In this document: piece by piece, positions 3,364-36,099 of the stretch | How positions within the stretch are numbered: position 1 is the stretch's first letter | Layout of the letters: each line of letters starts with the position of its first letter | Assembly (NCBI RefSeq): GCF_025147485.1 | Contig: NZ_CP102263.1 | Span: 3,361,501 to 3,425,500, forward strand | Reading direction: 5' to 3' | Length of the DNA stretch: 64,000 bases | Source of the DNA: Bacteroides uniformis | Lineage (GTDB): Bacteria; Bacteroidota; Bacteroidia; Bacteroidales; Bacteroidaceae | Notes under the pieces: generated by a model | Database searches by the model: none | What the model saw: the letters and a program-made list of their open reading frames with translations, nothing else | Told to the model about the DNA's origin: nothing | Program-made: the position numbers and the translations under genes

Positions 3364-3369
3364 ATCCGA

Positions 3370-13876: not shown

Positions 13877-15757
13877 ATGAAGAGAAAAGTACTATTAAGC
13901 ACATTGTTTCTAATACTACATTTCACTGTAGCATTAGCACAGCAAGTAACTATTTCAGGGCAAGTGTTGGATGAGAAGAGTGAACCTCTTATCGGTGCCA
14001 CGATAAATATCGAAGGTACCACCAATGCAGTAATCACCGATTTAGAAGGAAAGTTCACGATAAAAGTACTTCCTTCTGAAAAACTGGTCATCAGTTATCT
14101 GGGATATAAGCCCAAAACTATCACTATCGGAAAGAACCGAAGATTTGATATCATTCTAGACCCTTCAGTCACAGAGATGGATGAGGTGGTTGTTGTAGGC
14201 TATGGTAGCCAGCGAAAAAGTGATATTGCAACCGCCGTTGCTTCTGTGAATATAAAAGATATTGTAAACAGTAGTTCTACGCAGACGTTGCAAGCACTAC
14301 AAGGCAAAATCAGCGGAGTACAGATTATCCCCACAGACGGTTCATTGTCAAGCGGAATGACTTTCAGAATCAGAGGTGTCAACTCCGTCACAGGAGGAAC
14401 CCAGCCTCTCTTCGTCATTGATGGTGTACCAATGCCTACTCAACAGATCACCAATGAAGATACCGAAACGGTAAACAATCCTCTGCTGGGACTGAATCCA
14501 AATGATATTGAATCCAATTTGAATTATTGGAATCCTCGTCCTATCAAAAAGGATAATCCATATTTGACCGTCCAAAGGAAGCTCTCTCCACAGACTGTGG
14601 AGGATTTCGCCAATAGACTGTTCATCTACCAGGTAGGAAAAAACAATCATATCGGCTTTCCATTCCGCAAACCCTCCCAGATGGAAATCCTTAACTTTGA
14701 AATGAGGAACTATTTTGCAGAGACCAATACCAATTATAAAGCCTTTGCCACGGGTGGTGACAAGGCACAAAGCTGTTGGATGGCCAATTTTGTTCCTTTT
14801 GACAAGGTTACAGACATATATCTCTTTGAATCCGCTATTGACGCAATGAGTTTCTACGAAATAAACCATTATACTAAAGAAACCACATGCGCATTCATAA
14901 GCACGGGGGGATATGTCACCAAATCCCAAATAGAGAATATAAGCCGTATATTCCCATCTGATAAGGTAAAGTGGAATTGTTGCTATGACAATGATGCCAG
15001 CGGTAATGGTTTTGACATCACCACAGCATATTATCTCAAAGGTGAGGAATGTAAAGCTTTTGCAAGGACCAACACTGGAGACACATATAAGACCATCTAT
15101 TTAAGTTTCCCGGATGGAAACACACAGACCTTCAAAGAAGATGCATTTTCCTCCGGCGAGTATCTTAAACAACATGGTATAGACAATGTAAATATCATCA
15201 AACCTTCACGGTACAAAGATTGGAATGAGCTTCTTGTCTATTACAAAAGATTTGATTTGAACCTGGGTCCAGGAATGAAATTCATCCCGGCTATCGAAAA
15301 GACCATATCCCAACTGAATCTAAGAGGATATGAACAATTGGCCAATAGTATCAGTTCTTCCACAAAAGAACTGGCGGATTCTCTGCTTGAGCAAGCCAAT
15401 TACTGCATTTCCGCACCTCTTGCCGAGAGCGGCGCTTATACTCTTATGGTAGACTGTAATATCTTCATGGGGCTGGACACGATGGTACCGGTACCAAGCA
15501 ACTTATATGTTATAGAAAAGTGCACGCAAAAAAAGATATCGGCACATGCCATAAATGAATTTCTTAAAAAAGAATATATAAACATTTTTAGAGACATGAG
15601 TTCATCTGATTTCAAAAATTTTCTAGAGAAAGACATCCTAACTTATACAAAGGGTGCTGTAGAAAAGAATTTTGAGAAAGTGATATTGACTTTCGGATGG
15701 AGCCTTAAACCTTCAATTCTAAAAAAAAAGAGTTTTGACTTAGAACATGGTATATAG
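13877..15757 (+). CDS. Chimeric gene: SusC-like N-terminus fused to TOPRIM/primase-like C-terminus
   Basis: Two unrelated parts share one frame. Residues 1-213 are a SusC-type receptor start: signal peptide (KRKVLLSTLFLILHF...), carboxypeptidase-regulatory-like domain (SGQVLDEKSEPLIGATINIE), TonB-box region (MDEVVVVGYGSQRKSD) and plug (LFVIDGVPMP, GLNPNDIES). At about base 14515 homology switches: the rest (about 413 residues) is a cytoplasmic TOPRIM protein of mobile elements, with the acidic motif LFESAIDAMSF (about 14824) and the DxD motif CYDNDASGNGFD (about 14980). The SusC barrel and the primase N-terminus are both missing. Start chosen at 13877 because the signal peptide begins there; the ATG at 13793 adds a hydrophobic extension. 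A secreted TOPRIM domain is unlikely to work, so this is probably a recombination scar, or an assembly error. Confidence 0.8.
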   Translation: MKRKVLLSTLFLILHFTVALAQQVTISGQVLDEKSEPLIGATINIEGTTNAVITDLEGKFTIKVLPSEKLVISYLGYKPKTITIGKNRRFDIILDPSVTEMDEVVVVGYGSQRKSDIATAVASVNIKDIVNSSSTQTLQALQGKISGVQIIPTDGSLSSGMTFRIRGVNSVTGGTQPLFVIDGVPMPTQQITNEDTETVNNPLLGLNPNDIESNLNYWNPRPIKKDNPYLTVQRKLSPQTVEDFANRLFIYQVGKNNHIGFPFRKPSQMEILNFEMRNYFAETNTNYKAFATGGDKAQSCWMANFVPFDKVTDIYLFESAIDAMSFYEINHYTKETTCAFISTGGYVTKSQIENISRIFPSDKVKWNCCYDNDASGNGFDITTAYYLKGEECKAFARTNTGDTYKTIYLSFPDGNTQTFKEDAFSSGEYLKQHGIDNVNIIKPSRYKDWNELLVYYKRFDLNLGPGMKFIPAIEKTISQLNLRGYEQLANSISSSTKELADSLLEQANYCISAPLAESGAYTLMVDCNIFMGLDTMVPVPSNLYVIEKCTQKKISAHAINEFLKKEYINIFRDMSSSDFKNFLEKDILTYTKGAVEKNFEKVILTFGWSLKPSILKKKSFDLEHGI

Positions 15758-15944: not shown

Positions 15945-16104
15945 GGACAGGTATGGAACGGATGCCTATTCATGCCCCTATTATAGCTGACACATGGACT
16001 TTTATACATTCTTGCACTTTTTAAGTGGGTAAAAAAGTACTATTTGTATTTTATACAAAAAATTGTTTGCTTAATGAAATGGAACATACATTGCCAATGA
16101 TATT

Positions 16105-16126
16105 TAATACCTATATATAGGTATTA
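16105..16126. promoter_or_regulatory. 22-bp perfect palindrome, possible operator
   Basis: TAATACCTATA followed by its exact reverse complement. It lies 52 nt upstream of a perfect -7 box and about 550 nt before the TonB receptor start, in a position suited to a repressor or activator dimer. No regulator gene is adjacent. Confidence 0.5.
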
Positions 16127-16177
16127 GATGCGTTTTTATACCCAAAAAATGGTATTTTTATAATCTTTTGTAATATC

Positions 16178-16185
16178 TAATTTTG
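16178..16185 (+). promoter_or_regulatory. -7 box for the TonB/peptidase operon
   Basis: TAATTTTG is a perfect TAnnTTTG match; the -33 region is T-rich without an exact TTTG. If used, the transcript has an untranslated leader of about 485 nt before the ATG at 16677, long enough for RNA regulation. No known riboswitch was recognised in it. Confidence 0.5.
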
Positions 16186-16676
16186 CGTCCTAAAATAGAT
16201 CTTTTATCGAAGAGAGATACAGTTTCCTTATATTTGAACTGGGGCTTCTGTAAAGTGCGATAAATATGAGGCTGGAACGGAGCTATCAGAAGAATTTTGG
16301 AGAAAATCCGTTTTTTAACTTAGTTAGATCTATCAATGAAAATATAAGTATTTATCTGCGTTGTATTAAGATATAGCATATCAGAACTACAACCATCCCG
16401 TTTTTTATTTAGATTTGCAGTTTGCTTTTAATCACTCAAGATCCGTATTACTATGTATGGAACTTAAATAAAGTACTAATATATATTGGATTTTCCTAAA
16501 TATAATGCAGTTGCTATATTGTTAGACAACAGACGGTTGAGGTCTGTGAGATTATGCAACGGCACCAACAAAAACAACATGTATTTTTAATAATTTTAGT
16601 TTTGTTACACACAATGGTTTGTTTTAATTTAAAATTTACATATAATTTTGCATTGTTAATAAATATGATGTTACTT

Positions 16677-19538
16677 ATGAAAAAAGGTATTTTGGGGTGT
16701 AATATTATATACTTGTTTATACTTATTTGCATAGGAATTGCCCTCCCTATCAAATCGCAAAACAATTACAAAGTAAAACTTACAGGCACTGTTTATGAGT
16801 ACGACCACAACAACAAGCGTTTGCCTTTAGAATTTGCAGCTGTGTCTATTCCTGAAATTGCACTAGGGACAACCTCTGATGAAAATGGTAGATACATACT
16901 GGAAAACGTACCTACTGGTAAAATTCGTATGCAAATTCAATATTTGGGCAAAGTCTCCATTGACACCTTAATAAATGTAAATAAGGATTTGGTTCTTAAT
17001 TTTACAATGAGGAATGAGGATTTTAAGTTGAAAGAAGTTACAGTAACTGCAACCAACAGCCGTTCAGGCAAATCCACATCTTCTCACATTTCCCGCTCTG
17101 CTATGGACCATATGCAAGCGACCAGTTTATATGATGTAATGTCATTGATGCCAGGTGGAATTTCACAGAATCAAGATATGAGTTCGGCACAACAGATTAA
17201 CATCCGTCAAGTTTCCAGTTCCAGTGGTCCGGAAGCTCCGATGAATGCTATGGGCACCGCAATAATTCGTGATGGTGCCCCCATCTCAAATAATGCTAAT
17301 CTATCTGCGATGAGCCCTACGGTATTAAGTGGTACGGAAACACCCGCTTCATTGGCCGGAGGTGCCTCGCCGGCTGGTGGAACCGATGTTCGTAGTATTT
17401 CTACTGAAAATATAGAGTCTATACAAATCGTTCGTGGTATCCCTTCTGTTGAATATGGTGATCTGACCTCAGGAGCAGTAATTATTAATACAAAAGCTGG
17501 TCGTGAGCCGCTACGTGTCAAAGCAAAAGCCAATCCCAATATCTATCAGGTGTCTATGGGAACCGGTTTTGAACTTGGAAAAAAGAAAGGCGCTTTAAAT
17601 GTAAGTGCAGATTATGCTTATAATACGAATAATCCAATATCCAGTTACCAGCACTATCAGCGTGCCACAACAAAGTTGCTCTATTCAAATACTTTCTTTA
17701 ATAATAAGTTACGTACCAATTCCAGCTTTGATTTTATTTATGGTAAGGATCAACGTGAACGTAATCCTGATGATGAACAAACTAAAACAGCTTCGGAAGG
17801 CCGCGATATAGGTTTTACTTTGAATACCAATGGTACATGGAATATAAATAAGGGCTGGTTAAAAACACTACGCTATGTATTGTCAGGTACGTATATGGAT
17901 AAAGACAGTTATTATGAAACCGTATACAGTTCTGCTACATCTCCTTATTCCATGACCACTACAAACGGTGCGGTACTTAGTAACTTTGCAGGTCAGCATA
18001 TCTATGATGCCAATGGTAATCAAATTACTAATTTTGGACCGGAAGACATAAATCATTATGCTGTTTATCTACCAAGCAGCTATTTGGGACACTATGAGAT
18101 CGATAGTCGTGAAGTTAATTTGTTTGCTAAAGTGACGAGTTCTCTATTCAAGGCGAGCGGTCATGTAAACAACCGCATCTTGATTGGTGCGGATTTCCGG
18201 AGTGACGGTAACGTTGGTAAAGGAAAAACTTATGACCCAAGTACTCCTCCTTATCGTAGTCAATACGGTCATAATTCATCTTTCCGTCCACGTAACTATA
18301 AGGATATTCCTTTCATTAACCAATTTGGTGCATATGTGGAAGATAATTTCAAATGGTCCATAAGCGGTACGCATGATTTGAACATTCAGGCTGGTGTGCG
18401 TTATGATCATACCTCAGTAGTAGGAGGCATTTTCTCGCCACGTGTAAATGCATCCATTGATTTGATTCCGAATCTATTAAGTCTTCAGGGAGGTTACGGT
18501 ATTGCTGCAAAGATGCCTTCTCTTCTCTATTTATATCCAGAAAATGCATATTTTGAATATATCAATATAAATGAGCTTACCAATGAAAATATTCCGGAAA
18601 GCCAGCGCTTGTTTATGACTACCACAGAAGTTCGGCAAGTAGATAACTCAGATTTGAAGATTGCCCAAAATCATAAAGCAGAAGTCGGTTTTAATTTACG
18701 AGTGGGTAAAACCAATCTGAATGTAATAGCTTATAAGGAGCGTCTGAAGGATGGTTATGTAATGAGCCAAACCTTCAACACCTTCAATACATTTATCTAC
18801 AATGAATACCAGCGCACAGAAAACGGGATAGAGCTTAGTAGTAGCCTACCGGTATTGTCTACTTATGCAAAACCAACTAATAATTTAAATATAGAAACTA
18901 AAGGTTTAGAATTTGATTTGAATATCGGACGTATTGATGCTATCCGTACGGCCTTCCAAATAAATGGCTCATGGATGCGTACTAAGAGTTGGCGTCAGGG
19001 TTATAGCTTCTATGACAATAGCGAAGATGCTGCTTCAGCCCGTAAACCGGTGGCCATTTATTCTCAAGAAGGCAATGCAAGTTACAAACAACAATTTGTA
19101 ACGACTTTACGTGCCACTCACAATATCCCGCGTATCGGTTTTGTTGTTACGATGACAGCACAAGCTATTTGGCAGCAGTCTAATTGGAATACATTTGGAA
19201 ACGATTCTATACCTGTGGGCTATTTAGCATTGGAAGATGCGTCTGTAAATATGTTTCCCAAGGGGAAATATACCACTACCCAGCAAGTAAAGGATGCAGG
19301 ATATGGATATATGTTGAATAATGTAAGTCATAATAATGCTATAAAAGAATCATACAGTCCTTATTTTTGTTTTAACTTGAATGTAACTAAAGAAATTAGC
19401 AATATGCTACGTGTTTCTTTCTTTGCCAACAATATGTTCAGAAGTTATCCGCGCAGAGAATCCAAACGTAATCCGGGTTCATATATTCAATTGAATAACC
19501 GATTTTTCTTTGGGCTGGAATTATCACTCACTTTATAA
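16677..19538 (+). CDS. TonB-dependent outer-membrane receptor of peptidase-HEAT operon
   Basis: About 953 residues from ATG 16677: signal peptide (IIYLFILICIGIALPIKSQ), a carboxypeptidase-regulatory-like domain (GTVYEYDHNNKRLPLEF, GTTSDENGRYILENVPTG), TonB-box-like LKEVTVTATN, a plug with an unusual Ser/Ala/Gly-rich stretch (SGTETPASLAGGASPAGGTD) and IESIQIVRGIPSVEYGDLTSGAVII, then a large barrel ending in FFFGLELSLTL. It is not accompanied by a SusD gene. The upstream in-frame ATG at 16554 is rejected because it puts an extra hydrophobic stretch before the signal peptide. It is the first gene of a six-gene operon with DUF4876, DUF6850 and three peptidase-HEAT genes. Substrate unknown; a peptide, protein fragment or metal chelate released by the peptidases is inferred. 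Confidence 0.88.
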   Translation: MKKGILGCNIIYLFILICIGIALPIKSQNNYKVKLTGTVYEYDHNNKRLPLEFAAVSIPEIALGTTSDENGRYILENVPTGKIRMQIQYLGKVSIDTLINVNKDLVLNFTMRNEDFKLKEVTVTATNSRSGKSTSSHISRSAMDHMQATSLYDVMSLMPGGISQNQDMSSAQQINIRQVSSSSGPEAPMNAMGTAIIRDGAPISNNANLSAMSPTVLSGTETPASLAGGASPAGGTDVRSISTENIESIQIVRGIPSVEYGDLTSGAVIINTKAGREPLRVKAKANPNIYQVSMGTGFELGKKKGALNVSADYAYNTNNPISSYQHYQRATTKLLYSNTFFNNKLRTNSSFDFIYGKDQRERNPDDEQTKTASEGRDIGFTLNTNGTWNINKGWLKTLRYVLSGTYMDKDSYYETVYSSATSPYSMTTTNGAVLSNFAGQHIYDANGNQITNFGPEDINHYAVYLPSSYLGHYEIDSREVNLFAKVTSSLFKASGHVNNRILIGADFRSDGNVGKGKTYDPSTPPYRSQYGHNSSFRPRNYKDIPFINQFGAYVEDNFKWSISGTHDLNIQAGVRYDHTSVVGGIFSPRVNASIDLIPNLLSLQGGYGIAAKMPSLLYLYPENAYFEYININELTNENIPESQRLFMTTTEVRQVDNSDLKIAQNHKAEVGFNLRVGKTNLNVIAYKERLKDGYVMSQTFNTFNTFIYNEYQRTENGIELSSSLPVLSTYAKPTNNLNIETKGLEFDLNIGRIDAIRTAFQINGSWMRTKSWRQGYSFYDNSEDAASARKPVAIYSQEGNASYKQQFVTTLRATHNIPRIGFVVTMTAQAIWQQSNWNTFGNDSIPVGYLALEDASVNMFPKGKYTTTQQVKDAGYGYMLNNVSHNNAIKESYSPYFCFNLNVTKEISNMLRVSFFANNMFRSYPRRESKRNPGSYIQLNNRFFFGLELSLTL

Positions 19539-19551
19539 TGTTTAGGAAGTT

Positions 19552-20823
19552 ATGAAAAAATATTTAATATATTTGTTTACATTGGCAAGTACCCTTTTGA
19601 TAGGATGCGATTCGTTCAGGGACATGTCTGGCACAGCAGAAGTGAATCCTATCACAGTGGATGTATATTTGGATATTACCGTTGAAAATATATCCACACT
19701 GAAAGATCTGACTGTAAAGTTCGACAATTACGATGAAGATTTACATTATGTAAAAGAAGTAACTGATAATAGTGTGAAAGTTGACGGAATTATCCCCGGA
19801 ATTTATTCGGTAACAGTATCCGGTACAGCGATCGATACAGAAAACAATGAATACTACATCAATGGCAATTCTGTAAATGCGGCATTATTTAAGCATGGTA
19901 GCGCATTGAATATTGAAGTACAAGGGCTTAAAGTGAGCCCATTAATATTCAAGGAGATTTATTATTGCGGTAGCCGTCCGGAAAAAGGAGGAGTCTATTT
20001 CCGAGACCAGTTCTATGAGATATACAATAACTCTGCTGACATTTTGTATTTGGACGGTATTTATTTCGCAAATTTAACTCCGGGTACAGCTACCACTAAA
20101 TTACCTATTTGGCCGGAAGCGGACGGTAATAATTATGCATATGGAGAACGTGTGTGGAAATTTCCAGGAAATGGAACCGAATATCCGTTAGCGCCAGGTG
20201 AATCTTGCATCATTTCTCAATTTGCCGCTAACCATCAGTTGGACATCTATAACCCTCAAAGTCCTATAGACGGCAGTAGTTCTGAGTTTGAGTTTAATAT
20301 GAATAATCCAAACTTCCCTGACCAGGCAGCTTATGATATGCAACATGTTTTCTACCAAGGAAAAGCAGAGATGGGAAGTATACCACAATATTTGACATCC
20401 GTATTCGGAGGTGCTTATGTGATTTTTCGTGTTCCTGAAGGAGAAGCTTGGGATCCGGTCAACGATGAAAATATGAAGACAACAGATCTTAGCAAACCGA
20501 ACAGCAATGTTTATTATGCAAAAATACCTATTAAATATGTATTGGATGCTGTTGAAGCAGTAAACAATGAGTCAAAGATGAATGCAAAACGTGTCCCCGG
20601 TGTACTTGATGCAGGTATTACTTGGGTAGGAGCTACTTATTGCGGTTTAGGTATTGCTCGCAAATTGTCCACAGACGAAGAAGGTAATCCTATTATTCGC
20701 GAAGAAACAGGTACATATATATATCAGGATACAAACAACAGTACGGATGACTTTGAACGTGGCGTTGTTCCTGTAATGCGTCGTAATGGAGCAAAAATGC
20801 CTTCATGGAATCACACATTGTAA
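19552..20823 (+). CDS. DUF4876 lipoprotein
   Basis: 423 residues. Lipoprotein signal FTLASTLLIGCDSF; an N-terminal beta domain (VDVYLDITVENISTLKDLTVKFDN) like a carboxypeptidase-regulatory fold; then a larger domain with FKEIYYCGSRPEKGGVYFRD and FYEIYNNSADILYLDGIYFAN, which resembles lamin-tail-like beta sandwiches and fits DUF4876. It starts 13 nt after the receptor stop. DUF4876 proteins commonly sit beside TonB receptors without SusD, so it may act as the surface binding partner of the receptor. Function not established. Confidence 0.8.
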   Translation: MKKYLIYLFTLASTLLIGCDSFRDMSGTAEVNPITVDVYLDITVENISTLKDLTVKFDNYDEDLHYVKEVTDNSVKVDGIIPGIYSVTVSGTAIDTENNEYYINGNSVNAALFKHGSALNIEVQGLKVSPLIFKEIYYCGSRPEKGGVYFRDQFYEIYNNSADILYLDGIYFANLTPGTATTKLPIWPEADGNNYAYGERVWKFPGNGTEYPLAPGESCIISQFAANHQLDIYNPQSPIDGSSSEFEFNMNNPNFPDQAAYDMQHVFYQGKAEMGSIPQYLTSVFGGAYVIFRVPEGEAWDPVNDENMKTTDLSKPNSNVYYAKIPIKYVLDAVEAVNNESKMNAKRVPGVLDAGITWVGATYCGLGIARKLSTDEEGNPIIREETGTYIYQDTNNSTDDFERGVVPVMRRNGAKMPSWNHTL

Positions 20824-20846
20824 TAATTAACTAAAAAGACAGAACA

Positions 20847-22409
20847 ATGAAAAAACAATATATGAACTATATGAAAAGCTGCCTGCTGGTAATGATAGCC
20901 TGCCTTGTAAGTATGGTGGGAGCGGCACAGGGCTTCTCTCCCGCCGCTATGGAACAATTGAAAACAAGACGACTATGGTCTCATTCACAGAATGCTGCCG
21001 GTATGCCATTCGATGATATTCAGAATTATTCGAATGTTATATTGGGATATGACTTACAGGACGGAAACTATTGCCGTCCGCAAGAGGGGCAGAAAGAGGC
21101 TATCGTAGGTGTATCCAGTGAAGGCTTTATCAATCTGAAAAATGCATATGTGTGGGGAGCATTTAATTTTGCACAAAAAAATCTGACAGATGCCGGATAT
21201 AACGCCTCCATTGCCGATCCATTCAGGGGAATGCCTTACTATGTCGCAGACCAGCACTTAAGTAAATGGAGAAATCAATATTACGATCTGAAGTTTCGTG
21301 CAGCTACTCCTTTACTTGGTAATCATTGGGCATTGGGGTTGGAAGGTAATTATGTAGCTACATTAGCTGCCAAACAGCGCGACCCGCGTGTGGATACCCG
21401 TTTTTATACGCTGGGACTGACGCCGGGGATTACTTACAAGTTGAATAATTCACACAAGTTTGGTGCAAGTTTCAAGTATAGTTCTATCAAGGAAGACTCA
21501 AGAATGAGTAATGTCAACTCTTATGTGGATCAGGACTATTATATATTATACGGTTTGGGAACAGCCATAAAAGGAATAGGCAGCGGTGTAACCAGCAATT
21601 ATATTGGAGACCGTTTCGGTGGAGCTCTCCAGTACAACTTCAGTATGCCCTCTTTCAATTTACTGCTTGAGGGCAGTTACGATGTAAAAGCGGAAACTGT
21701 TCAGCAGAGCTATACGACTCCTAAAAAAATAGCCGGTGTAAAAGATAAAACTGCTCATGTTTCTTTAACGATGATTCAGGAAGGAAAGGACTATACCAAT
21801 TATATGAGAACCACATATACAAATCGTAACATCGATGGTATTCAGTATATTTCTCAACGCGATAACTCTGAATCACAAAGTGGCTGGGTGGAATTATATA
21901 ATAACATCCGTTCTACGTACAAGGCACAAACCGCTTCTCTTAATTATGCATTAAGCAGAAACCGCGGGAATGAATATAGTTGGAAAGCAGAATTAAATGT
22001 GAATTATACCAAGCAAGACGATGGATATTTAATGCCTAATTCTGTACAGAATGCAGAAAATTTATCTTTAGGCTTAGGTGGCAAAAAAAATTTTGTTTTA
22101 GGCAATAGTTTGAATCGCAGGCTTTTAATAGATGTTCATGTTGCGTATAACAATAATCTGGGAGGTGAATATGTATATGGTGGCAGCCATGCAGACTATC
22201 CAACTGTAACCGAATTACAACAAGGGCTGACTAATTATTATACCTGTGATTACTATCGTATTGGCGGGTCGATAACGTATTCGCAACAAGTCAGAGAAAA
22301 CAGACGTATGAACTTATTTGCAAAAGTTGTATTCGATCGTGTAAATACCTCTGACTATGATTATGATGGGCGTACTCATTTATCGATAAGTTTAGGATGT
22401 AATTTTTAA
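20847..22409 (+). CDS. DUF6850-type outer-membrane beta-barrel protein
   Basis: 520 residues with a Sec signal (LLVMIACLVSMVGAAQG) and then alternating amphipathic strands with many aromatic residues up to a terminal strand ending in Phe (THLSISLGCNF), the signature of an outer-membrane barrel. The N-terminal WSHSQNAAGM and GYDLQDGNYCRPQ stretches fit DUF6850. It lies 23 nt after the DUF4876 gene and 30 nt before the first peptidase gene. It may export or anchor partners or serve as a second channel; nothing in the sequence decides this. Confidence 0.78.
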   Translation: MKKQYMNYMKSCLLVMIACLVSMVGAAQGFSPAAMEQLKTRRLWSHSQNAAGMPFDDIQNYSNVILGYDLQDGNYCRPQEGQKEAIVGVSSEGFINLKNAYVWGAFNFAQKNLTDAGYNASIADPFRGMPYYVADQHLSKWRNQYYDLKFRAATPLLGNHWALGLEGNYVATLAAKQRDPRVDTRFYTLGLTPGITYKLNNSHKFGASFKYSSIKEDSRMSNVNSYVDQDYYILYGLGTAIKGIGSGVTSNYIGDRFGGALQYNFSMPSFNLLLEGSYDVKAETVQQSYTTPKKIAGVKDKTAHVSLTMIQEGKDYTNYMRTTYTNRNIDGIQYISQRDNSESQSGWVELYNNIRSTYKAQTASLNYALSRNRGNEYSWKAELNVNYTKQDDGYLMPNSVQNAENLSLGLGGKKNFVLGNSLNRRLLIDVHVAYNNNLGGEYVYGGSHADYPTVTELQQGLTNYYTCDYYRIGGSITYSQQVRENRRMNLFAKVVFDRVNTSDYDYDGRTHLSISLGCNF

Positions 22410-22439
22410 TGCTACATAACGAAATCTATATTACAAAAC

Positions 22440-24614
22440 ATGCGTAAATTAATAACTGGAAGTTTGATGCTCTGCAGCATATTATCTCTGCGGGCACAGA
22501 CATTTGTTAAACCGGCTGTGAAAGTAAAGGACACCTCTTTTGCTGTAATTACAGATAAAGGGACATTTCAGGCTTGTGAAGCCGAGCTTAAAGCCTATCA
22601 GGAGATTCTAGGAAAGGAAGGGTTGCCTACGTTCATCGTATACAATGAATGGAATAAACCGGAAGATGTAAAGAAAGTTATTGTTAAACTCTACAAAAAG
22701 GATAAATTGGAAGGAGTGGTATTTGTCGGTGATATCCCTATTCCAATGCTCCGCAAAGCCCAGCATATGACTTCCGCTTTTAAAATGGATGAGAAAAACA
22801 ATGACTGGAGAGATTCTTCAGTGCCCAGCGACCGTTTCTACGATGATTTCGACCTACAATTCGATTTTTTGAAACAGGACAGTGTCGAAAATAATTTCTT
22901 CTATTATAATTTGGCTATAAAATCTCCACAGCAAATTCGGTGTGACATATATTCTGCACGTGTCAAAGCTGTTGATAACGGCGAAGAACCGCATGCGCAA
23001 ATCAGCCGCTATTTTAAAAAAGTGGTGGCTGAGCACCAGATAAACAATAAATTAGACCAATTCTTCTCCTATACAGGTGATGGCTCTTACTCTAACTCAT
23101 TGACTGCATGGACACCGGAAACCTTTACTATTCGCGAACAAATGCCGGGCGTATTCGATAAAGAGGGACGGGCCCGTTTCATCCGTTATAATTTCAGCGA
23201 TTATCCCAAGGACGATGTCATTAATATGCTGAAACGCACAGATCTGGACTTGTCTATTTTTCATGAGCATGGTATGCCCGAACGTCAATATCTTTCCGGT
23301 AGTCCCGCTACTAATAGGTGGAATGCTCATGTAGATGCAATGAAGTACTATTATCGTGGTTTAGCGCGTAGAAAGCAAAACAACAAAAAGTCTTTCGACG
23401 AAATGCTGGATATGATGAAAAACACATACGGTTTGGACACTACTTGGATTGCAGGCTATGATGATCCCAAAGTAATTGCAGAAGATTCTTTACTAGACCT
23501 GCGCACCGGTATTATCCTGTCGGAAGTTACAGAGTTTAAGCCTAATAGCCGTATGGTAATTTTCGATGCATGCTATAATGGTGATTTCCGGGAAAAAGAT
23601 TACATTGCCGGACGTTATATCATGTCGGAAGGAAAATGCGTAACTACTTTTGCCAATTCAGTCAATGTACTGCAAGATAAAATGGCAAACGAAATGCTCG
23701 GCCTGTTAGGTATGGGAGCACGAGTGGGGCAATGGGCTAAATTGACGAATATTCTCGAATCGCACATTACCGGTGACCCTACTCTACGTTTTCATTCTAT
23801 CAATGAGGTAGATGCCAATGCTTTGTTCAAAGAACCATATAGCGAGTCCCGCATGTTGGAGTTATTACAGTCGCCCTATGCCGACATACAGAATTTTGCT
23901 TTGCACAACCTTTATCGCAATGACTATCCGGGTATTTCTGATTTATTAAGAAAAACTTTTGAAACTTCCTCGTTCATGATGGTACGTTTCACCTGCTTGG
24001 CATTGCTTGAGAAGATTAGTGACAAAAACTTCCGGGAAGTCTTACACTTGGCCATTACGGATTCCTATGAATTTATTCGTCGCACCTCCGTTCGTATGAT
24101 GCAACATGTGGGACTGAACGAGTATGTTTATCCGCAAATCAAAGCCTATGTAGAAGACAACCTATCCGAGCGTGTGGCATTTAATGTGAGTTTGGGGCTT
24201 CAAGTCTTTGATCAGGCAGCCGTACAGGCGGCAATTGATAAAGTAATGGCTGAGACCTATGTGTTGCAAGACAAGGAGGAGATGCGTAAGGTTTTGGAGA
24301 ATGCCAATAATAGTCGTAGCATGCAAAAAGAGTTATTAAGCAAAGAAACTTCCGAACGTTGGCGCATCCTTTATTGCAATTCTCTGAAAAATCATATGGC
24401 ACATGCCTGTGTAGACGGCCTCTTGGCTTTACTTACCGACTCCAGTGAAAGTGAAAAGCTAAAAACCTGTTTATTGGAGGCTTTTGCTTGGTTCACTCAT
24501 TCTTATCGGAAGCCTGACATCCTTCGGGTATGCGATCAACTGAGAAAAGATAAGAGCTTATCCGAGAACCTTCGTGAAGAAGCCGACCGTACATATTACA
24601 GACTTAAAAATTAA
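22440..24614 (+). CDS. Secreted clan CD-like cysteine peptidase with HEAT repeats, copy 1
   Basis: 724 residues. Cleavable signal (LMLCSILSLRAQ). Residues about 30-450 resemble gingipain/C25-type clan CD peptidases: VVFVGDIPIPM (92-103), SVPSDRFYDDFD (127-138), a His-Gly dyad IFHEHGMP (H277) and an Ala-Cys dyad IFDACYNGDF (C378), closing with HITGDPTLRFH (442-452). Residues about 460-720 are alpha-helical HEAT-type repeats (SPYADIQNFALHNLY, SSFMMVRFTCLALLEKI). No membrane anchor or type IX C-terminal domain is evident. First of three tandem paralogues in the operon. Predicted to be a periplasmic or surface peptidase; activity and substrate are inferred. Confidence 0.8.
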   Translation: MRKLITGSLMLCSILSLRAQTFVKPAVKVKDTSFAVITDKGTFQACEAELKAYQEILGKEGLPTFIVYNEWNKPEDVKKVIVKLYKKDKLEGVVFVGDIPIPMLRKAQHMTSAFKMDEKNNDWRDSSVPSDRFYDDFDLQFDFLKQDSVENNFFYYNLAIKSPQQIRCDIYSARVKAVDNGEEPHAQISRYFKKVVAEHQINNKLDQFFSYTGDGSYSNSLTAWTPETFTIREQMPGVFDKEGRARFIRYNFSDYPKDDVINMLKRTDLDLSIFHEHGMPERQYLSGSPATNRWNAHVDAMKYYYRGLARRKQNNKKSFDEMLDMMKNTYGLDTTWIAGYDDPKVIAEDSLLDLRTGIILSEVTEFKPNSRMVIFDACYNGDFREKDYIAGRYIMSEGKCVTTFANSVNVLQDKMANEMLGLLGMGARVGQWAKLTNILESHITGDPTLRFHSINEVDANALFKEPYSESRMLELLQSPYADIQNFALHNLYRNDYPGISDLLRKTFETSSFMMVRFTCLALLEKISDKNFREVLHLAITDSYEFIRRTSVRMMQHVGLNEYVYPQIKAYVEDNLSERVAFNVSLGLQVFDQAAVQAAIDKVMAETYVLQDKEEMRKVLENANNSRSMQKELLSKETSERWRILYCNSLKNHMAHACVDGLLALLTDSSESEKLKTCLLEAFAWFTHSYRKPDILRVCDQLRKDKSLSENLREEADRTYYRLKN

Positions 24615-24620
24615 TTGGCC

Positions 24621-26822
24621 ATGATTAAAAAAATAATATATCTGGCATTTCTTTTGCCATTGGCAGGAAATGCACAAACAACAGTCATAAAGCCATTGGT
24701 CAAACAACCTACCGCTTTTGCTATCATAACAGATAACCAAACTTATGCAAATACCAAAGATGCCATGCATCAGTACAAAACTGCGGTTGAAGATGATGGT
24801 TTGGCAACTTATCTGATCAGCGGTGACTGGCAAAATCCAGATCAAGTCAAACAGATAATCATCAAAACATATCAAGAATGCCCTTCATTGGAAGGTCTGG
24901 TTTTAATCGGCGATGTGCCTGTCGCATTGGTACGTAATGCGCAACACATGACTACTGCATTCAAAATGAATGAGAAAGCCTTTCCTTGGGATCAGTCTTC
25001 CGTACCTACCGACCGCTTTTATGATGATCTGAACTTAAAGTTTGAGTTCATCAGGCAAGACTCAGTAAATCATCAGCATTTCTACTACAAATTGACAGAA
25101 GACAGTCCCCAGCGGCTAAATCCTACTTTCTATTCAGCTCGTATCAAGTATCCGGAAAAAAAGGAAGGGGATAAATATGCGGCCATTGCCTCATATCTGA
25201 AGAAAGCTGCTGCTGCCAAGGCAGATAAGCATAATCAATTAGATCGGGTATTCTCATTCAATGGTGCTTCTTACAATTCCGATTGCCTGATTGTATGGAT
25301 GGATGACGAAAAAGCTTATATGGAGAACTTTCCATTAGCTTTTGGTCGTCAAATGGGATTCAAACATTGGAACTTCCGAATGAAACACCCTATGAAATAT
25401 AAGTTATTCAGCGAATTGCAACGAAAGGACCTTGACTTATTTATGTTTCATGAACATGGAATGCCAACAGGGCAGCTTATTAATGATGAATTGGCATGCA
25501 CTGATTTCAATAATCGTTATAAAATGTTGAAGAGTACACTTTATAATGCAGTCATGTCCCATGTTGGAAAACGTGACAAAGACACCTTACGTATTCAGAT
25601 GCAGGAAAAACGACAAGTGAATGAGGTGTTTTTTAAAGACCTGGACAATCCTAAGTTCTGGGAAGCAGACTCTCTTCACTACGCTGATGAACGTATCGTA
25701 ACGGAAGATTTAATGAAGAGAAATCTTTCCACTAATCCGAAGATGATAATGTTTGATGCGTGCTACAACGGTTCTTTTCACGAAAACGACTATATAGCAG
25801 GACAATATATCTTTAATGACGGTCAGACATTAGTAGCACAAGGAAATACCCGTAACGTATTGCAAGACCGCTGGACTATTGAAATGATTGGTTTGTTGTC
25901 CCATGGTGTACGAGCCGGGCAATACAATAAGCTAATCGTATCACTTGAAGGTCATTTGTTTGGTGATCCCACTTTCCGTTTTGCTCCTATCGAAGCCAAT
26001 ACTTTAAGTACCGATATAACAATACACAAAGATGACAAAGCCTATTGGAAGAATTTGTTAAACAGCCCATACGCTGATGTACAAAGTTTGGCCATGCGTA
26101 TGCTGGCTGACGCCGATACCCAAAAGGAATTATCTCCGTTGCTCCTGAAGAAGTACCGGGAAAGTGGCTTCAATACGGTTCGTATGGAAGCTATCAAGTT
26201 GTTGAGCCGTTATCAGGACGACAACTTCATCGAAGCATTACGCGAAGGTTTGAACGATACTTATGAAATGGTAGCTCGCCAAAGTGCCATTTATGCTGGA
26301 TTTGTAGGTGACGATTCCTTATTGCCCGCTATTGTGGAAGCATTGGTCGAACATAATGAACGCTTACGCGTACAAATGAGTGCCAACAAGGCTTTAAGCC
26401 TTTATCCGAAAGAGAAAGTAGAAAAGACAATAGAAGACTTTTATGCAAAAGTTGACCGTTTGAATGAAAACGAAGAGAAAAAACGATTACTAAGAAGCCT
26501 GGAAAGAATGTTTGTACAAGAGGCAAAAGTCCATCAGACCTTGATGGATGTAGCTGCACCGGAAGCAAAACGTATCAGTGCAATCCGCAATGTGCGTAAC
26601 TATACATTCCATTTCCACGTGGATGATTATTTGAATGTAATTCGTGATGCCGGTAATCCACAGGAAGTACGTGTAGTAATGGCCGAAGCATTAGGTTGGT
26701 TTACTAATTCTGTACAACGGCCACACATTCTTGAAGAAATAAAGAAGATGCAACAAACAGCCAATCTTCCGGAAGATTTAAAAGCAGAGCTTGAACAGAC
26801 AATCAAAAGATTAAGTTTATAA
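24621..26822 (+). CDS. Secreted clan CD-like cysteine peptidase with HEAT repeats, copy 2
   Basis: 733 residues from ATG 24621 (the TTG at 24615 directly abutting copy 1 is less likely). Signal IIYLAFLLPLAGNAQ. Same plan as copy 1: VLIGDVPVALV, SVPTDRFYDDLN, His-Gly dyad MFHEHGMP (H279), Ala-Cys dyad MFDACYNGSF (C381), HLFGDPTFRF, then HEAT-like helices (SPYADVQSLAMRMLAD, VRMEAIKLLSRYQDD). Both predicted catalytic residues are kept, so it is likely active. It lies 6 nt after copy 1 and 2 nt before copy 3, which shows tight co-expression. Different cleavage preference from its siblings is plausible but unseen. Confidence 0.8.
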   Translation: MIKKIIYLAFLLPLAGNAQTTVIKPLVKQPTAFAIITDNQTYANTKDAMHQYKTAVEDDGLATYLISGDWQNPDQVKQIIIKTYQECPSLEGLVLIGDVPVALVRNAQHMTTAFKMNEKAFPWDQSSVPTDRFYDDLNLKFEFIRQDSVNHQHFYYKLTEDSPQRLNPTFYSARIKYPEKKEGDKYAAIASYLKKAAAAKADKHNQLDRVFSFNGASYNSDCLIVWMDDEKAYMENFPLAFGRQMGFKHWNFRMKHPMKYKLFSELQRKDLDLFMFHEHGMPTGQLINDELACTDFNNRYKMLKSTLYNAVMSHVGKRDKDTLRIQMQEKRQVNEVFFKDLDNPKFWEADSLHYADERIVTEDLMKRNLSTNPKMIMFDACYNGSFHENDYIAGQYIFNDGQTLVAQGNTRNVLQDRWTIEMIGLLSHGVRAGQYNKLIVSLEGHLFGDPTFRFAPIEANTLSTDITIHKDDKAYWKNLLNSPYADVQSLAMRMLADADTQKELSPLLLKKYRESGFNTVRMEAIKLLSRYQDDNFIEALREGLNDTYEMVARQSAIYAGFVGDDSLLPAIVEALVEHNERLRVQMSANKALSLYPKEKVEKTIEDFYAKVDRLNENEEKKRLLRSLERMFVQEAKVHQTLMDVAAPEAKRISAIRNVRNYTFHFHVDDYLNVIRDAGNPQEVRVVMAEALGWFTNSVQRPHILEEIKKMQQTANLPEDLKAELEQTIKRLSL

Positions 26823-26824
26823 AT

Positions 26825-29017
26825 ATGAATAAATACATCCTTTTGGCAATTACCGCTTTGTGCTTACAGGATATGCAGGCGCAAACAGTTGTACATCCTA
26901 GTATAAAAACAAAGACTACTTTTGCAATTGTAGTCGATCAGAAAAGTTATGATGAAGCGAAAAGTGAAATTGATGCTTATCGTACCAGTATAGAAAAAGA
27001 AGGTTTAGGTACTTACTTGCTAATTGATGATTGGAAAAGGCCCGAACCTATTCGTGAGCAACTTGTCAAATTGCATGAGAATGAGAAAACGCCTTTGGAG
27101 GGTTGCGTATTTATAGGTGACATCCCTATTCCAATGATTCGTGATGCACATCATCTATCTTCGGCTTTCAAAAGGTCTCCCAAAGCCAATTGGCAGAAAT
27201 CAAGCGTTCCTTCCGACCGTTATTATGATGACTTCGGATTAAAATTTGATTATATTAAACAAGACAGTTTGATACCTGACTATCATTATATGACATTGCG
27301 TGCTGATTCTAAACAGTATATTTCACCGGATATTTATTCGGCCCGTATCCGTCCATTACATTTAGAAGGTGAGAACCGTTATCAGATGCTACGCGATTAC
27401 TTAAAAAAGGCAGTTGCCGAAAAAGCAAAGCAAAATGCATTTGACCAACTGACTATGGCCCGTGGCCATGGTTACAATTCTGAAGATCCTTTGGCATGGA
27501 GCGGTGAGCAAATAGCCTTACGTGAGCAATTGCCGCAAATATTCAAATCGGGTAATACAGTGAAGTTCTATGATTTTAACATGCGCTATCCGATGAAACC
27601 ATTATACTTGAACGAGATTCAGCGCGAAGGATTAGATGTCATGCTATTCCATCACCACGGTGGCCCCACCATGCAGTATATCAATGGCTATGAAAATGGT
27701 TCCGGTATTAATTTGAGTATTGAGAATGCCAAAATATTCTTGCGAAGCAAAGTGCCTTCATACGCCAAGAAACATGGGCGTGAAGCTGCTATCAAAGAAT
27801 ATGCCAAGCAGTATGGGGTGCCTGAAAGTTGGTGTGCGGAAGCTTTCGATGAGGAGAAAATAAAATCGGATTCCATTGTAAACCGTAATATGGATATCTA
27901 TACTGAAGATATTCGTCTTTTGACTCCTAATGCGCGTTTTATATTGTTCGATGCTTGTTTCAACGGTTCTTTCCATTTGGATGACAACATTGTAGGCTCT
28001 TATATATTCAATAAGGGTAAGACCATTGCTACTATGGGATGTACGGTTAACACCATTCAAGATAAATGGCCGGATGAATTTCTCGGCTTGTTAGCTGCCG
28101 GTATGCGCATCGGGCAGTTCACTCGTTTTACCTGCTTCTTGGAAAATCATCTGATCGGTGACCCGACTTTTCACTTCACCAATAATGCCGGGCTGGATAT
28201 GGACATCAACCAAGCTTTAGTTGCGCAGGAAGGAAATGTTACATTCTGGAAAAAACAGCTGAATTCCCCTATGGCTGACATGCAGGCAATGGCGCTCCGT
28301 CAATTGTCAATGGCAAATTATAGTGGTCTCGTTGAGTTGCTGAAGAAAAGTTACCACGAATCGAACTATTTCGTTGTGCGGTTGGAAGCATTACGCCTAT
28401 TAGCTTTGAACTATCCGACAGAGGTTGCCGATGTATTGCAGACAGCCATGAACGACAGTTATGAACTGATCCGTCGTTATGCGGTGGAATACGTTGAAAA
28501 GAATTGCAATCCGGAATTGTTGCCGGCATGGATAGAAAGCTATTTATTACGCGGACATGAAAACCGCCATCGTTTCAGAATTTTTAGTGCTATCAACACG
28601 TTCGACCATGATATGGCTTTGAATGAATTGAAGAAACAGGCTGCCGATTGGTCTTTCTACGATTCTTCCTATGTGAATGAATTGTTAGAATACCTTCCTC
28701 GCCAAAAGAAAGGACTTGAAAGAGATTTTGCACTTATTGACAGTCCGGAAAGTACTACCAAACAGATACAAAGCGAAATAAGTAGGTTCCGAAATAAACC
28801 TATTGCTAAAGCTATTGAGCCATTACTGAACATTATAAAAAATGAAAGCCAAGAAGAAGAACTTCGCATATTGGCTGCTGAAACATTAGGCTGGTATAAT
28901 TTATACTATAATAAAGCAGATATAATCAAAGAACTTAACACATTTAGAACTTCCAATCAAAAGCTAATGAACGAAGTTACCAAAACAATTAATAGGCTGA
29001 AAAGTCAAAATAGGTAG
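26825..29017 (+). CDS. Secreted clan CD-like cysteine peptidase with HEAT repeats, copy 3
   Basis: 730 residues. Signal ILLAITALCLQDMQAQ. Motifs: VFIGDIPIPMI, SVPSDRYYDDFG, LFHHHGGPTMQ (H278-G279; EHG of the other copies becomes HHG), LFDACFNGSF (C378), HLIGDPTFHF, followed by HEAT repeats (SPMADMQAMALRQLSM, YFVVRLEALRLLALN). The C-terminus (INRLKSQNR) aligns with the ends of copies 1 and 2, so it is full length although an IS256 fragment starts 3 nt after its stop. Last gene of the operon. Confidence 0.8.
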   Translation: MNKYILLAITALCLQDMQAQTVVHPSIKTKTTFAIVVDQKSYDEAKSEIDAYRTSIEKEGLGTYLLIDDWKRPEPIREQLVKLHENEKTPLEGCVFIGDIPIPMIRDAHHLSSAFKRSPKANWQKSSVPSDRYYDDFGLKFDYIKQDSLIPDYHYMTLRADSKQYISPDIYSARIRPLHLEGENRYQMLRDYLKKAVAEKAKQNAFDQLTMARGHGYNSEDPLAWSGEQIALREQLPQIFKSGNTVKFYDFNMRYPMKPLYLNEIQREGLDVMLFHHHGGPTMQYINGYENGSGINLSIENAKIFLRSKVPSYAKKHGREAAIKEYAKQYGVPESWCAEAFDEEKIKSDSIVNRNMDIYTEDIRLLTPNARFILFDACFNGSFHLDDNIVGSYIFNKGKTIATMGCTVNTIQDKWPDEFLGLLAAGMRIGQFTRFTCFLENHLIGDPTFHFTNNAGLDMDINQALVAQEGNVTFWKKQLNSPMADMQAMALRQLSMANYSGLVELLKKSYHESNYFVVRLEALRLLALNYPTEVADVLQTAMNDSYELIRRYAVEYVEKNCNPELLPAWIESYLLRGHENRHRFRIFSAINTFDHDMALNELKKQAADWSFYDSSYVNELLEYLPRQKKGLERDFALIDSPESTTKQIQSEISRFRNKPIAKAIEPLLNIIKNESQEEELRILAAETLGWYNLYYNKADIIKELNTFRTSNQKLMNEVTKTINRLKSQNR

Positions 29018-29236
29018 AATCATCCAAACGATGAGATAGACCGGATCCAAAGGGCGGTTCTGCCATTCCTGAGCAGCCTGGTTGACTTTGTTCGTGATGA
29101 TGGAAATAGCTGATGTGGACAGTTCTATCTCATAGATTTCACGCATCTCCTCTTCTATGTCTGACACGCTCATTCCTTTGGCATATAGGGAGATAACAAG
29201 TTTTTCTTTAATATTATCGACACTATACAGGGACAT
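29018..29236 (-). pseudogene. IS256-family transposase fragment
   Basis: The minus strand encodes an internal piece of a mutator/IS256 transposase: LVISLYAKGMSVSDIEEEM, STSAISIITNKVNQAAQEW, RPLDPVYLIVWM. Homology breaks after VWM at about 29020, where the catalytic D should follow, and most of both ends is lost. It abuts the last peptidase gene. Confidence 0.75.
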
Positions 29237-29320
29237 TCAGTAAATGTCTATAGTATAACTCCTCAACCAGTTCCAGACACCAATCATTAAAACAGGGATA
29301 TTCCTAAAATAATAAAATTT

Positions 29321-29357
29321 AAGGCAACTAATTCATTGCGAGTTAGTTGCCTTTTTT
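29321..29357 (+). terminator. Intrinsic terminator after the peptidase operon
   Basis: Perfect 11-bp stem AAGGCAACTAA (29321-29331) / TTAGTTGCCTT (29343-29353), 11-nt loop, then a T-run. The A/T-rich left flank could make it partly bidirectional. It would stop the outer-membrane operon and insulate the IS fragment beyond it. Confidence 0.85.
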
Positions 29358-29426: not shown

Positions 29427-30118
29427 ATGGTAAAGATACAAAAAATCTCAGAAATCGAACCTCGTTTAGGTTTTACCGAGTTCGATATGCTAAAAAAATA
29501 TCGTCAAAGTTTTGCAACGAGTGAATTAGGTCGCCTCCATGCTCTGTTTCCTTTCTCGGAACTGGCCCGACAAATGCATTTGAAGTCCTCTGCTTTGGGT
29601 CGTAAAAGTTATTTTTCTCCCGAAGGTAAAATAGCCTTGATGGTCTTGAAGTCCTATACCAACTTTTCCGATGCACAACTGATTGAGCATTTAAACGGTA
29701 ATATTCATTACCAGTTGTTTTGTGGTGTTCAGATTGATCCGCTTCATCCACTAACCAATCCTAAAATCGTTAGTGCAATTCGTCAGGAACTAGCGCATCG
29801 CCTTGACGTTGAGCCCCTCCAGCTCATTCTTGCCGAGCATTGGAAACCTTATCTTGAGAACCTTCATGTCTGTATGACCGATGCCACCTGTTATGAAAGT
29901 CATCTGCGTTTTCCTACTGATACCAAACTCTTATGGGAAGGTATTGTATGGCTTCATCGTCATCTGTGCAAACATTGCCAGACCTTGCACATACAACGTC
30001 CCCGTAACAAGTATCTTGATGTACGCCGTGCCTATCTTGCTTATAGCAAACTGCGTAAACGCAGGAAATCACAGACTCGTATGATTACACGAAGGTTACT
30101 TCAGTTATTGGAAAATTC
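29427..30118 (+). pseudogene. IS1182/IS5-type transposase, 3'-truncated
   Basis: The N-terminal half of a DDE transposase: the DUF772-like region SPEGKIALMVLKSYTNFSDA and LIEHLNGNIHYQLFCG, then the first catalytic-type segment MTDATCYESHLRFPTDTKLL. Transposase sequence seems to end near ITRRLLQLLE at about 30110; the following codons read antisense through the end of the restriction gene. The second half and right terminal repeat are missing. Together with the truncated restriction gene this marks a deletion junction. Confidence 0.75.
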
Positions 30119-33100
30119 AATACTGCCAACAGATAATCCAAATGATCGCCTGTCATAATATAACAGGCATTGTTCATTACATAATTGTTGGCATCATATG
30201 CAAAAGCCATTTGGTTTCCGATTATTTTCCATACAATTTTTGGCTTAGAAAAATCCTCCCAATAACTGATGCTATCTTGTGTTTCAAACCACTCGTTACT
30301 AGTTTTCTTTCGGGCTTTTATTTTTTTGCCATTAACAATATGAGTTTCTCCTGTTTGTTCTAAACGCTCTATGCCAATTGACAGAAGATAATTTTTCACC
30401 GCAGGATAACTTTCTATATCATAATGCCGCGAAGGAAATGTGGCTATAATCCACAAGTCCGCCCATTCATATTCATATCTCTTGATATCCCTGCCACGAA
30501 GAATCGGTCGTATAAGTTCAGCCGTCCGAACACGTTCATCTTCTGTTTGACAATTCGCTAGTATCTCATCACGCTTTTCGGTAGAAATGATAAAAGCATC
30601 ATTGAAACCAGTTTTTATCCCATAGTTGATTTGGATGTTCCAATCCTTCAAGGGTATTCCCACAGACTCAATCTTCTGCTTGATGCTCTGTTCAATGGGA
30701 GACAATATCACCCATGGGATAGAATCTGCAAAGTTACACTTCACGCCTTGTTGCTGCACGAAATCGCTCAAATTATTCAAGCCATTCGAATCTTGTACCA
30801 AACAAGCTTGTGTGTTAAAAATATTTGCTGCTTTTTGAGATAAAAGAATATTTGCTTCTACCGTTATTGCATCGAATATTTTTATACCTGCAAAATCTAC
30901 CAACATAATAGGATTGGTCTTGCTTGCGAAATAACCTCGCAAGGCTTCACCATACCCTGCACGCATCCATTTATTAGACGTGATATAGCAAAGAAAACCA
31001 TTGGGAGTAAGCAGGTTCATACCCAACTCATAGAAGAGGCAGTAAATATCACCAGTGCGTGCATAAGTTATGTAACCCATGCATTCTAATACATCGGCAC
31101 TCTTACCCATAGATTGTAACTGAATGTAAGGTGGATTGCCAATGATACAGTCAAATCCCAAGAAGTTGCCTTCGGCATCGAGTACTTCTGGAAACTCTAT
31201 ACGCCATTCGAATGCACCAAGATAAATTTTGTTGGAGCGTATTTCCTCAAATATATTTTCTAAAGTCGCAATTTCTTTCTTTAAATCGGCAATGCGCTTG
31301 TCCGACGCTTTCTTTTCCTTTTTTGTCGGTTCAAACAGTTGAGGCGCTTGTAAGTTTGCCAACTCAGAGCGGCGTTTGTTCAATCTAACCAATCGTGCAT
31401 CCCGGCGGTTGATCTCTGTTTTCAGTTTCGACTTGATTTCTGTTATAAACGTTTCCAAATCCTGCTTTTCGCTTTTACTTTGGGCATTTTTATATTTAGC
31501 TACAGCCTCCTTATATTGGCTGATGCTGATACTAGACTCTCGCAGTACGGTCTGAATACTGTCTGTCAAAGCGAATCGGTGAAGCAAAGAATTTCCACAT
31601 TTGATGTTAATGTCGATATTTGGTAAGGTTTCTAAATAAGTGTAATTACTTTCAGCCGTATAGTAAGCATTCTTCAACAATTCAATCCACAGTCGTAGGC
31701 GGCAAATCTTCACAGAGTTGGGGTTAATATCAACGCCAAATAAACAGTTCTCAATGATTTGACGCTTCTCCTTGAAAAGAGTTTCCTGCATGCGGCGACT
31801 TTCCGCATTGAGTGGGTTGTAAGCAAATAAATTACCTTCGGTATCGGTAACAATCAGCTCGTCATTTTCAATGGCAAGTTGATAGTCCGCTTTGCGGATA
31901 CGCTTACCGGTAGCATCTACCAAAATACCTAATTCGTATTTCAAGAGTATCAGTTCATTGAGAGCAGACACAAGAAAGTGACCCGAACCAACAGCTGGAT
32001 CACACAGTCGCAAACTGTTAATTAGTTCATTAGCTTCGACTATATTGTCAATATGGTTGTATAGTTCTATACGGGTGGTACAATTCCAGCCATAATAACC
32101 ATTAAACTTTTGCAACACGGTCTTGGTGATTGCTTCACGGCACATGAACATAGTGATAAAGCCTGGAGTGAATACTGAACCATCCTTGTGACCATTTATT
32201 TTCTCGAATATAAGCCCTAAAACAGAAGCATTGATGAGTGTTTTAGCCTCTTCTTGCACTTCTTCACTGCCTTCGCTCGCAAAGTTATAAGCGTCGAGAA
32301 AAGCAAACAAATATTGCAGGGTGGGTAATGCGTTGACTTGTAGATTGCGTTTTTTATTTCGTAATACGCTACTCGCCAAGACAGGAAGTACCGTACGTTG
32401 TGAAAGGCTGTTTATCTTAATTGTTTTACTTTCCAAATCTGTCACCTCGAAAAGAGAACTGTTAAGATAGGGAACGTAAGCAAAATCACGCATAATGGAG
32501 TGTGTGCGGCTGCCCATGTCACGTGCAAGCACTTGGAAAAAGAGTGTGTTGAGATCATCATAGTCATGAATCTTAGTTATTGAAAGAAATTTATAGATTG
32601 CATCTCCATTGTGGTATTTCAACATCTGAGCCTCCAACAGTTTCAAGAAAAGGATACGATTCATCCAAGTAATACACAATTCCATTGCAACATTGAATAA
32701 CCGTTCCTCATAATCATTCCCATACAAACGACCATTTATGTGACGCAAACAATCTTCTGCATCCAGTTGGTTAATAGTATTCTCTAGTAATGAAGCCTCG
32801 TCACGCCGTTCCACAGCTTTGCGTACAATCACGGTTTTATTATTCTCTTTGCGTTCCTCAATACCAATAATGTGTAGCAGCTCAGTGTAGAATCCACGGT
32901 TGAGCGAATTGCTGTCATTTTGGAACGATAGCTTCAAAAGATGTGTATCGCTGAATATCTTATAAAGTTCGATAAGTTTGCGTGAAGCGCTACTGTCTGT
33001 TCTATCAAGCAGGTGTTGATAGTCTTGTAAGTTGAAGTAAGTGTATTCAAGGCTATCTTTCACCTCCTCAATATAGGTTGTTGCAATTTCAGTATAGAAG

Positions 33101-36080: not shown

Positions 36081-36099
36081 GATAATGATTGTTTAGGGA

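Follow-up and report, generated by a model that had tools for sequence, protein, structure and literature searches.

We identified a six-gene operon in a 64,000-nucleotide stretch of Bacteroides uniformis DNA (contig NZ_CP102263.1, positions 3,361,501 to 3,425,500; hereafter the window, whose coordinates are used below) that combines a TonB-dependent receptor, a DUF4876 lipoprotein, a DUF6850 barrel and three paralogous peptidase-HEAT proteins. We consider the chances even that this operon encodes an iron-starvation-induced system for protein import and digestion, which would work like the Fus/PqqL systems with other parts. This reading draws on gene order, predicted folds, a catalytic dyad, gene linkage, exchange of genes in one slot and mobility, and on iron induction reported in print.

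In the proposed mechanism, DUF4876 at the cell surface would capture a protein or peptide, which the TonB receptor would move inward across the outer membrane with the DUF6850 barrel as a partner or second pore. Three putatively periplasmic gingipain-fold cysteine peptidases, all with a helical-repeat tail of their own and perhaps an old, separate specificity, would cut this substrate. Digestion would then free bound iron or heme.

All six open reading frames (ORFs) lie on the plus strand with intergenic gaps of 13, 23, 30, 6 and 2 nucleotides, in agreement with the tight spacing (2-30 nucleotides) described in an earlier reading of the DNA (the sequence-only reading). That reading placed the operon at 16105 to 29017. 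The six genes stand, but 16105 to 16676 looks non-coding in the receptor frame, and the most likely receptor start, picked by eye from the signal peptide, is 16677. The genome holds no additional copy.

16677 to 19538, plus strand: TonB-dependent receptor, not of the SusC type (ORF; Pfam CarbopepD_reg_2 and Plug; predicted barrel)
19552 to 20823, plus strand: DUF4876 lipoprotein (Pfam, E 5e-56)
20847 to 22409, plus strand: DUF6850, predicted large outer-membrane beta barrel with N-terminal helices (Pfam, E 1e-114; AlphaFold; VIA-align)
22440 to 24614, plus strand: peptidase-HEAT paralogue 1, position 1 clade (AlphaFold; VIA-align; tree)
23268 to 23270, plus strand: His277 codon of paralogue 1 (alignment position)
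23571 to 23573, plus strand: Cys378 codon of paralogue 1 (alignment position)
24621 to 26822, plus strand: peptidase-HEAT paralogue 2, position 2 clade, H279/C381 (ORF; alignment; tree)
26825 to 29017, plus strand: peptidase-HEAT paralogue 3, position 3 clade, H278/C378 (ORF; alignment; tree)

The lipobox cysteine of DUF4876 (Cys19) is invariant in 48 of 48 aligned proteins, and the six residues after it include one to three acidic ones in all 48. Residues 25-423 are identical to PDB 4Q1Z; a literature search found no paper naming this entry. The AlphaFold model of DUF6850 (pLDDT 91.1) is a large all-beta barrel, which supports the earlier suggestion of a second barrel. The operon lacks the two parts of SusCD-type nutrient uptake: the receptor has no match to the OMP_RagA_SusC model, and a Pfam scan of the operon found no SusD, as the sequence-only reading had noted.

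Fold, active site and age of the peptidase-HEAT paralogues

The AlphaFold model of paralogue 1 comprises a gingipain-fold domain (residues 29-456) and a helical repeat tail (457-724). Comparison of this model with PDB 1cvr and 4rbm by VIA-align assigns the catalytic fold to clan CD/gingipain, consistent with what the motifs had suggested. HEAT_2 scores above its Pfam cut-off in paralogues 2 and 3 and below it in paralogue 1. The predicted dyad lies exactly where the sequence-only reading had placed it (H277/C378, H279/C381 and H278/C378 in paralogues 1, 2 and 3), and both residues are kept in 216 of 216 aligned proteins, six ORFs shorter than 550 amino acids having been removed beforehand. H277 and C378 both fall inside the range aligned with gingipains, for which VIA-align lists no residue pairs. 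The Pfam C25 model matches four of 46 proteins scanned (best E 4.7e-6). Compared with the C25 gingipains RgpB and Kgp (1cvr and 4rbm), the peptidase is 16% identical, carries a helical insert of about 63 residues between His and Cys, and ends in a HEAT tail instead of a type IX secretion system (T9SS) tail.

All three paralogues start with a type I signal peptide (by eye). They have no lipobox by a simple pattern and no Por_Secre_tail match, the T9SS C-terminal sorting domain, at E up to 1. These features make a periplasmic location likelier than a surface one.

The paralogues are 33-35% identical to one another over their length. Identity is 38-39% in the peptidase part and 24-26% in the tail, so the tails diverge faster. 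In a FastTree phylogeny of 208 distinct sequences, the largest clades, chosen by a 90% purity rule with the remaining tips being of unknown position, are nearly position-specific. The clade of genes first after DUF6850 has 78 tips (68 first-position, three upstream; support 0.99), the second-position clade 52 (45 second, four third; 0.998) and the third-position clade 25 (20 third, two first; 0.999). A further clade represents genes upstream of the receptor (21 tips, 18 upstream; support 1.0), and two extra second-position clades have nine and eight tips. Every window copy groups with the clade of its own position. Copy number ranges from one to four across 22 genomes of the same family, with at most four candidates scored per genome. 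The three copies are old, separate lineages, and their order has been preserved. This pattern is compatible with either a hetero-complex or a different specificity for each copy, as the sequence-only reading had suggested from the triplication with its retained catalytic residues.

Linkage to the receptor set and the slot after DUF6850

Homologues routinely found apart from the receptor and lipoprotein would speak against a common system, and we observed close linkage instead. Among 251 genomes of the same family, the peptidase profile occurs in 22, DUF6850 over its cut-off in 61 and DUF4876 in 60. In all 22, a peptidase gene and a same-strand DUF6850 match lie 34-112 nucleotides apart (the DUF6850 match being partial in G216 and G230; G018 has one further piece on a separate contig). 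In a six-frame search of the best 80 of 358 loci encoding a relative, 76 have DUF6850, 73 have DUF4876 and 72 have the receptor. Eight loci are incomplete: in seven of them only 0.04-2.1 kb of contig precedes the first peptidase, and the eighth is weighed below. We also searched 395 genomes of the phylum and retrieved five strong matches outside the class. Four of these loci encode receptor, DUF4876 and DUF6850, one or two more genes, and then a peptidase; in the fifth (L207), truncated by a contig end, genes for a receptor, DUF4876 and M16 lie in the vicinity. The arrangement recurs across the phylum and is therefore not due to chance. It links a TonB-dependent receptor to exported peptidases, export being judged by eye from signal peptides.

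A neighbourhood survey of DUF4876-DUF6850 pairs revealed a point missed earlier: the pair mostly occurs without C25-HEAT peptidases. No C25-HEAT gene adjoins 57 of the 77 DUF6850 loci (at least 99.9 bits) in the family sample. We retrieved 55 of these 57, and the order receptor-DUF4876-DUF6850 is nearly invariant among them. The slot after DUF6850 holds the following:

M16 peptidase: 18 of 55, often behind a second DUF4876 (L142 assigned by hand, skipping a short spurious ORF)
PepSY and/or its ATP-binding cassette (ABC) module: 12 of 55
Met-zincin/S46: 2 of 55, plus Met-zincin as third gene in 1 of 55
S8 subtilase: 1 of 55
AhpC and ferritin-like: 2 of 55 (L144 by Pfam, L149 by equal lengths)
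GH127: 1 of 55
Second DUF4876 alone: 4 of 55
None or unclassified: 12 of 55
No DUF6850 ORF called: 2 of 55

A peptidase is thus recognised in the slot of 22 of the 55 loci. For each of the 18 M16 calls PF00675 matches over its cut-off, and four of the calls were also made by hmmscan. Since genomes have three to eight M16 matches (18 genomes: 17 picked for having an M16 locus, and the B. uniformis genome), an M16 gene would fall in the slot by chance in at most about one locus in 100, as a rough estimate. C25-HEAT and M16 genes adjoin in L205, and an M16 gene is the divergent neighbour in L207 and L208. The sharing of one slot by several unrelated peptidase families is the strongest argument that proteolysis belongs to the function where a peptidase is present. 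The role in proteolysis and uptake that the sequence-only reading had put forward gains weight from these sister loci.

Two operons with C25-HEAT genes (L195 and L196) also encode an HmuY-family lipoprotein, and L197 has its relative. In these three loci the peptidase genes are followed by a protein of about 490-520 amino acids and then the small HmuY-family lipoprotein; the former has a weak, sub-threshold papain-like match in L195.

Alternatively, the peptidases might serve in processing or maturation of the receptor, lipoprotein or barrel instead of digesting imported cargo, or might cleave a ligand at the surface so that a small molecule such as heme is freed for the receptor. Gingipains are extracellular enzymes that attack hemoproteins of the host, DUF6850 has peptidase genes as neighbours in genomes of the same family, and among relatives with a T9SS some proteins in the slot bear secretion tails (S8 in L192; BNR proteins in L204, L205 and L208). 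We consider this unlikely, as the window peptidases have plain type I signals with neither lipobox nor T9SS tail, and the core stands without peptidases in many genomes and so hardly needs them to mature.

A mobile element with a vitamin B12 cassette

The operon is carried by an integrated element that also encodes BtuB2 and BtuG2, both overlooked by the sequence-only reading.

1 to 37642, no strand: window part of the integrated element (about 41.65 kb, starting about 4 kb to the left of the window), carrying the operon
3343 to 4443, plus strand: BtuG2 (DUF5074), letter-identical to PDB 8bmx chain D
4462 to 6540, plus strand: BtuB2 TonB receptor, letter-identical to PDB 8bmx chain C
6552 to 8672, plus strand: remaining B12 cassette genes, Peripla_BP_2 and FecCD permease (domain scan)
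34869 to 37410, minus strand: pair of tyrosine integrase genes, right end of the element

A third integrase-like ORF lies at the left end. The element is 99.9% identical, with the same ends, in Butyricimonas (G254) and Bacteroides xylanisolvens XB1A (G253). The same ends in unrelated hosts and an integrase at an end mark it as mobile. Its flanks in B. uniformis match separate parts of Phage_integrase (positions 4-108 left and 132-170 right, both just under the cut-off), indicating that it splits a host tyrosine recombinase gene. The split points lie near position 3357500 of the contig (G000:C1; about 4 kb before the window) and at window position 37642, near an A-R-H-[ST] motif that also occurs in the right flanks of three other hosts (by eye).

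A paralogue 1 of 100% identity (rounded) is also present in Phocaeicola faecicola, Bacteroides bouchesdurhonensis, B. xylanisolvens XB1A and a Butyricimonas. In B. bouchesdurhonensis the shared stretch runs from 10127 to about 37641 and contains one inversion; the nominal match end, 37741, runs into host sequence. P. faecicola (L020) shares only 16022-29321, with the operon 99.96% identical and the DNA beyond 29321 different. Its left match stops near a contig edge and its right match inside the contig, so the operon has other neighbours there and may have reached P. faecicola by another carrier.

A role in protection against imported protein toxins, in which the peptidases would destroy bacteriocin-like proteins entering through the receptor, is very improbable. 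The operon is mobile and common to several families, and several peptidase lineages stand side by side, as protection might favour, but a receptor and peptidases in one operon would import a toxin that is then destroyed. Such a role also fits poorly with iron regulation and with the HmuY and PepSY relatives.

The BtuB2-BtuG2 vitamin B12 importer shares with the operon the element and the logic of a TonB receptor with a surface lipoprotein, and, as far as described in the excerpt of PMC10404256, it takes a small cofactor without peptidases, unlike the operon. A Bacteroides conjugative transposon with a B12 transport locus, BoCTn, is cited in part of PMC11005914 (Frye et al. 2021); from this citation alone, its likeness to our element is a mobile B12 locus in Bacteroides.

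Other features of the element include a group II intron fragment at 12792-12924 (plus strand; RF02012, 77.5 bits), between a ParA-like gene and a chimeric ORF at 13793-15757 (plus strand). The latter joins a SusC/RagA N-terminus (to residue ~241) in frame with DUF3991/Toprim and is ~99.9% identical in the element's other hosts. Directly 3' of the operon is a transposase-like ORF (29427-30158, plus strand; ISNCY/IS5 models under cut-off, DUF772); the matching XB1A stretch is mostly a run of N. An Eco57I-like restriction-modification gene (DUF7149/DUF7814) occupies 30085-33633 on the minus strand. In B. bouchesdurhonensis its 1.33 kb segment 30763-32093 has the opposite orientation; the alignments overlapped by ~12 bp in the first comparison, and the segment is possibly a phase-variable specificity switch.

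Iron regulation and comparison with known systems

Iron regulation, which the sequence-only reading missed, is already in print for the probable Bacteroides thetaiotaomicron copy. In the part of PMC10434189 covered, iron depletion induces BT1933-39 (HEAT-repeat, DUF4876 and TonB-receptor products) 3.5-7.4-fold, BT3625-33 38-128-fold and PG1019-22 20.8-214.5-fold, and the legend of figure 1C puts PG1019-21 in one group with BT1938-39 and a P. intermedia locus. A Porphyromonas gingivalis DUF4876 gene has a log2 value of -5.42 in a hemin comparison, beside -6.11 for HmuY (PMC10470040, in part). These iron-depletion loci share DUF4876 and a TonB receptor with our operon, and BT3625-33 has PepSY/ABC genes where the window has peptidases; the portion of PMC10434189 covered gives no function, peptidase reading or slot variation for them. 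The excerpt of PMC10404256 names BT1953 and BT1954 and includes 8BMX, labelled BtuG2 alone, among its B. thetaiotaomicron BtuG2/BtuB2G2 entries.

As another explanation, which we regard as improbable, the machine would scavenge nutrient peptides, taking up and digesting proteins of dietary, host or microbial origin as a source of amino acids, with an indirect iron response. This would suit the several peptidase families in the slot, including S46, and the modest induction of the B. thetaiotaomicron locus relative to BT3625-33 (excerpt of PMC10434189). Such scavenging accounts poorly for the PepSY/ABC, AhpC or ferritin-like genes that replace peptidases in sister loci and the HmuY-family lipoproteins of two peptidase operons, all tied to iron, heme or redox, and for the strong iron-depletion response printed for sister loci. 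S46 enzymes are dipeptidyl peptidases.

Several observations weigh against protein import and digestion for iron. No peptidase is recognised in 33 of the 55 C25-less loci (two without a called DUF6850 ORF), so proteolysis is not a universal partner of the core, and the secretion tails suggest that at least some proteins of the slot act at the surface. One locus, L076 (3048-14427), is a true exception: it has five tandem peptidase-HEAT genes, and the 22 kb covered there contain neither a receptor nor DUF4876 nor DUF6850. The Pfam C25 model matches none of the three window proteins, and the peptidase family profile retrieved no gingipain from PDB sequences. Neither a TonB homologue nor an inner-membrane transporter is encoded within the six-gene operon. 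The operon is probably BT1934-39, an identity drawn from the BT1933-39 product list and from BtuG and BtuB, letter-identical to B. thetaiotaomicron 8bmx, rather than from genome alignment. Substrate, transport and proteolysis are themselves steps that we infer.

More tentatively, TonB-DUF4876-DUF6850 loci may be a platform for protein import throughout the Bacteroidota whose release module can be exchanged (gingipain-fold peptidases, the FusC family M16, Met-zincin/S46, S8 or PepSY/ABC); gut strains would trade the three-peptidase version along with a B12 importer on one mobile element. If so, gingipain-type peptidases would also be periplasmic iron-release enzymes in commensals, and whole-protein import for iron would be a general strategy in a dominant gut phylum, beyond the Fus-type systems that PMC6793856, as excerpted, places in Proteobacteria. 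DUF4876 and DUF6850 would gain a function, iron-regulated orphan loci of B. thetaiotaomicron and P. gingivalis would be explained, and iron and B12 acquisition could pass between gut species as one package.

The operon lacks the dedicated TonB homologue (FusB) and the ABC gene (FusD) of the Fus-type cluster. Since neither these features nor an M16 peptidase is present, we do not file it under the Fus type. The likeness to Fus (FusA-FusC) and YddB-PqqL, as far as the excerpt of PMC6793856 describes them, lies in a TonB receptor beside a peptidase with an export signal and in iron-linked expression. Their peptidase is M16, the broad family also used by our sister loci, whereas the window enzymes have a gingipain fold, and the operon adds a DUF4876 lipoprotein, a second barrel and three peptidases.
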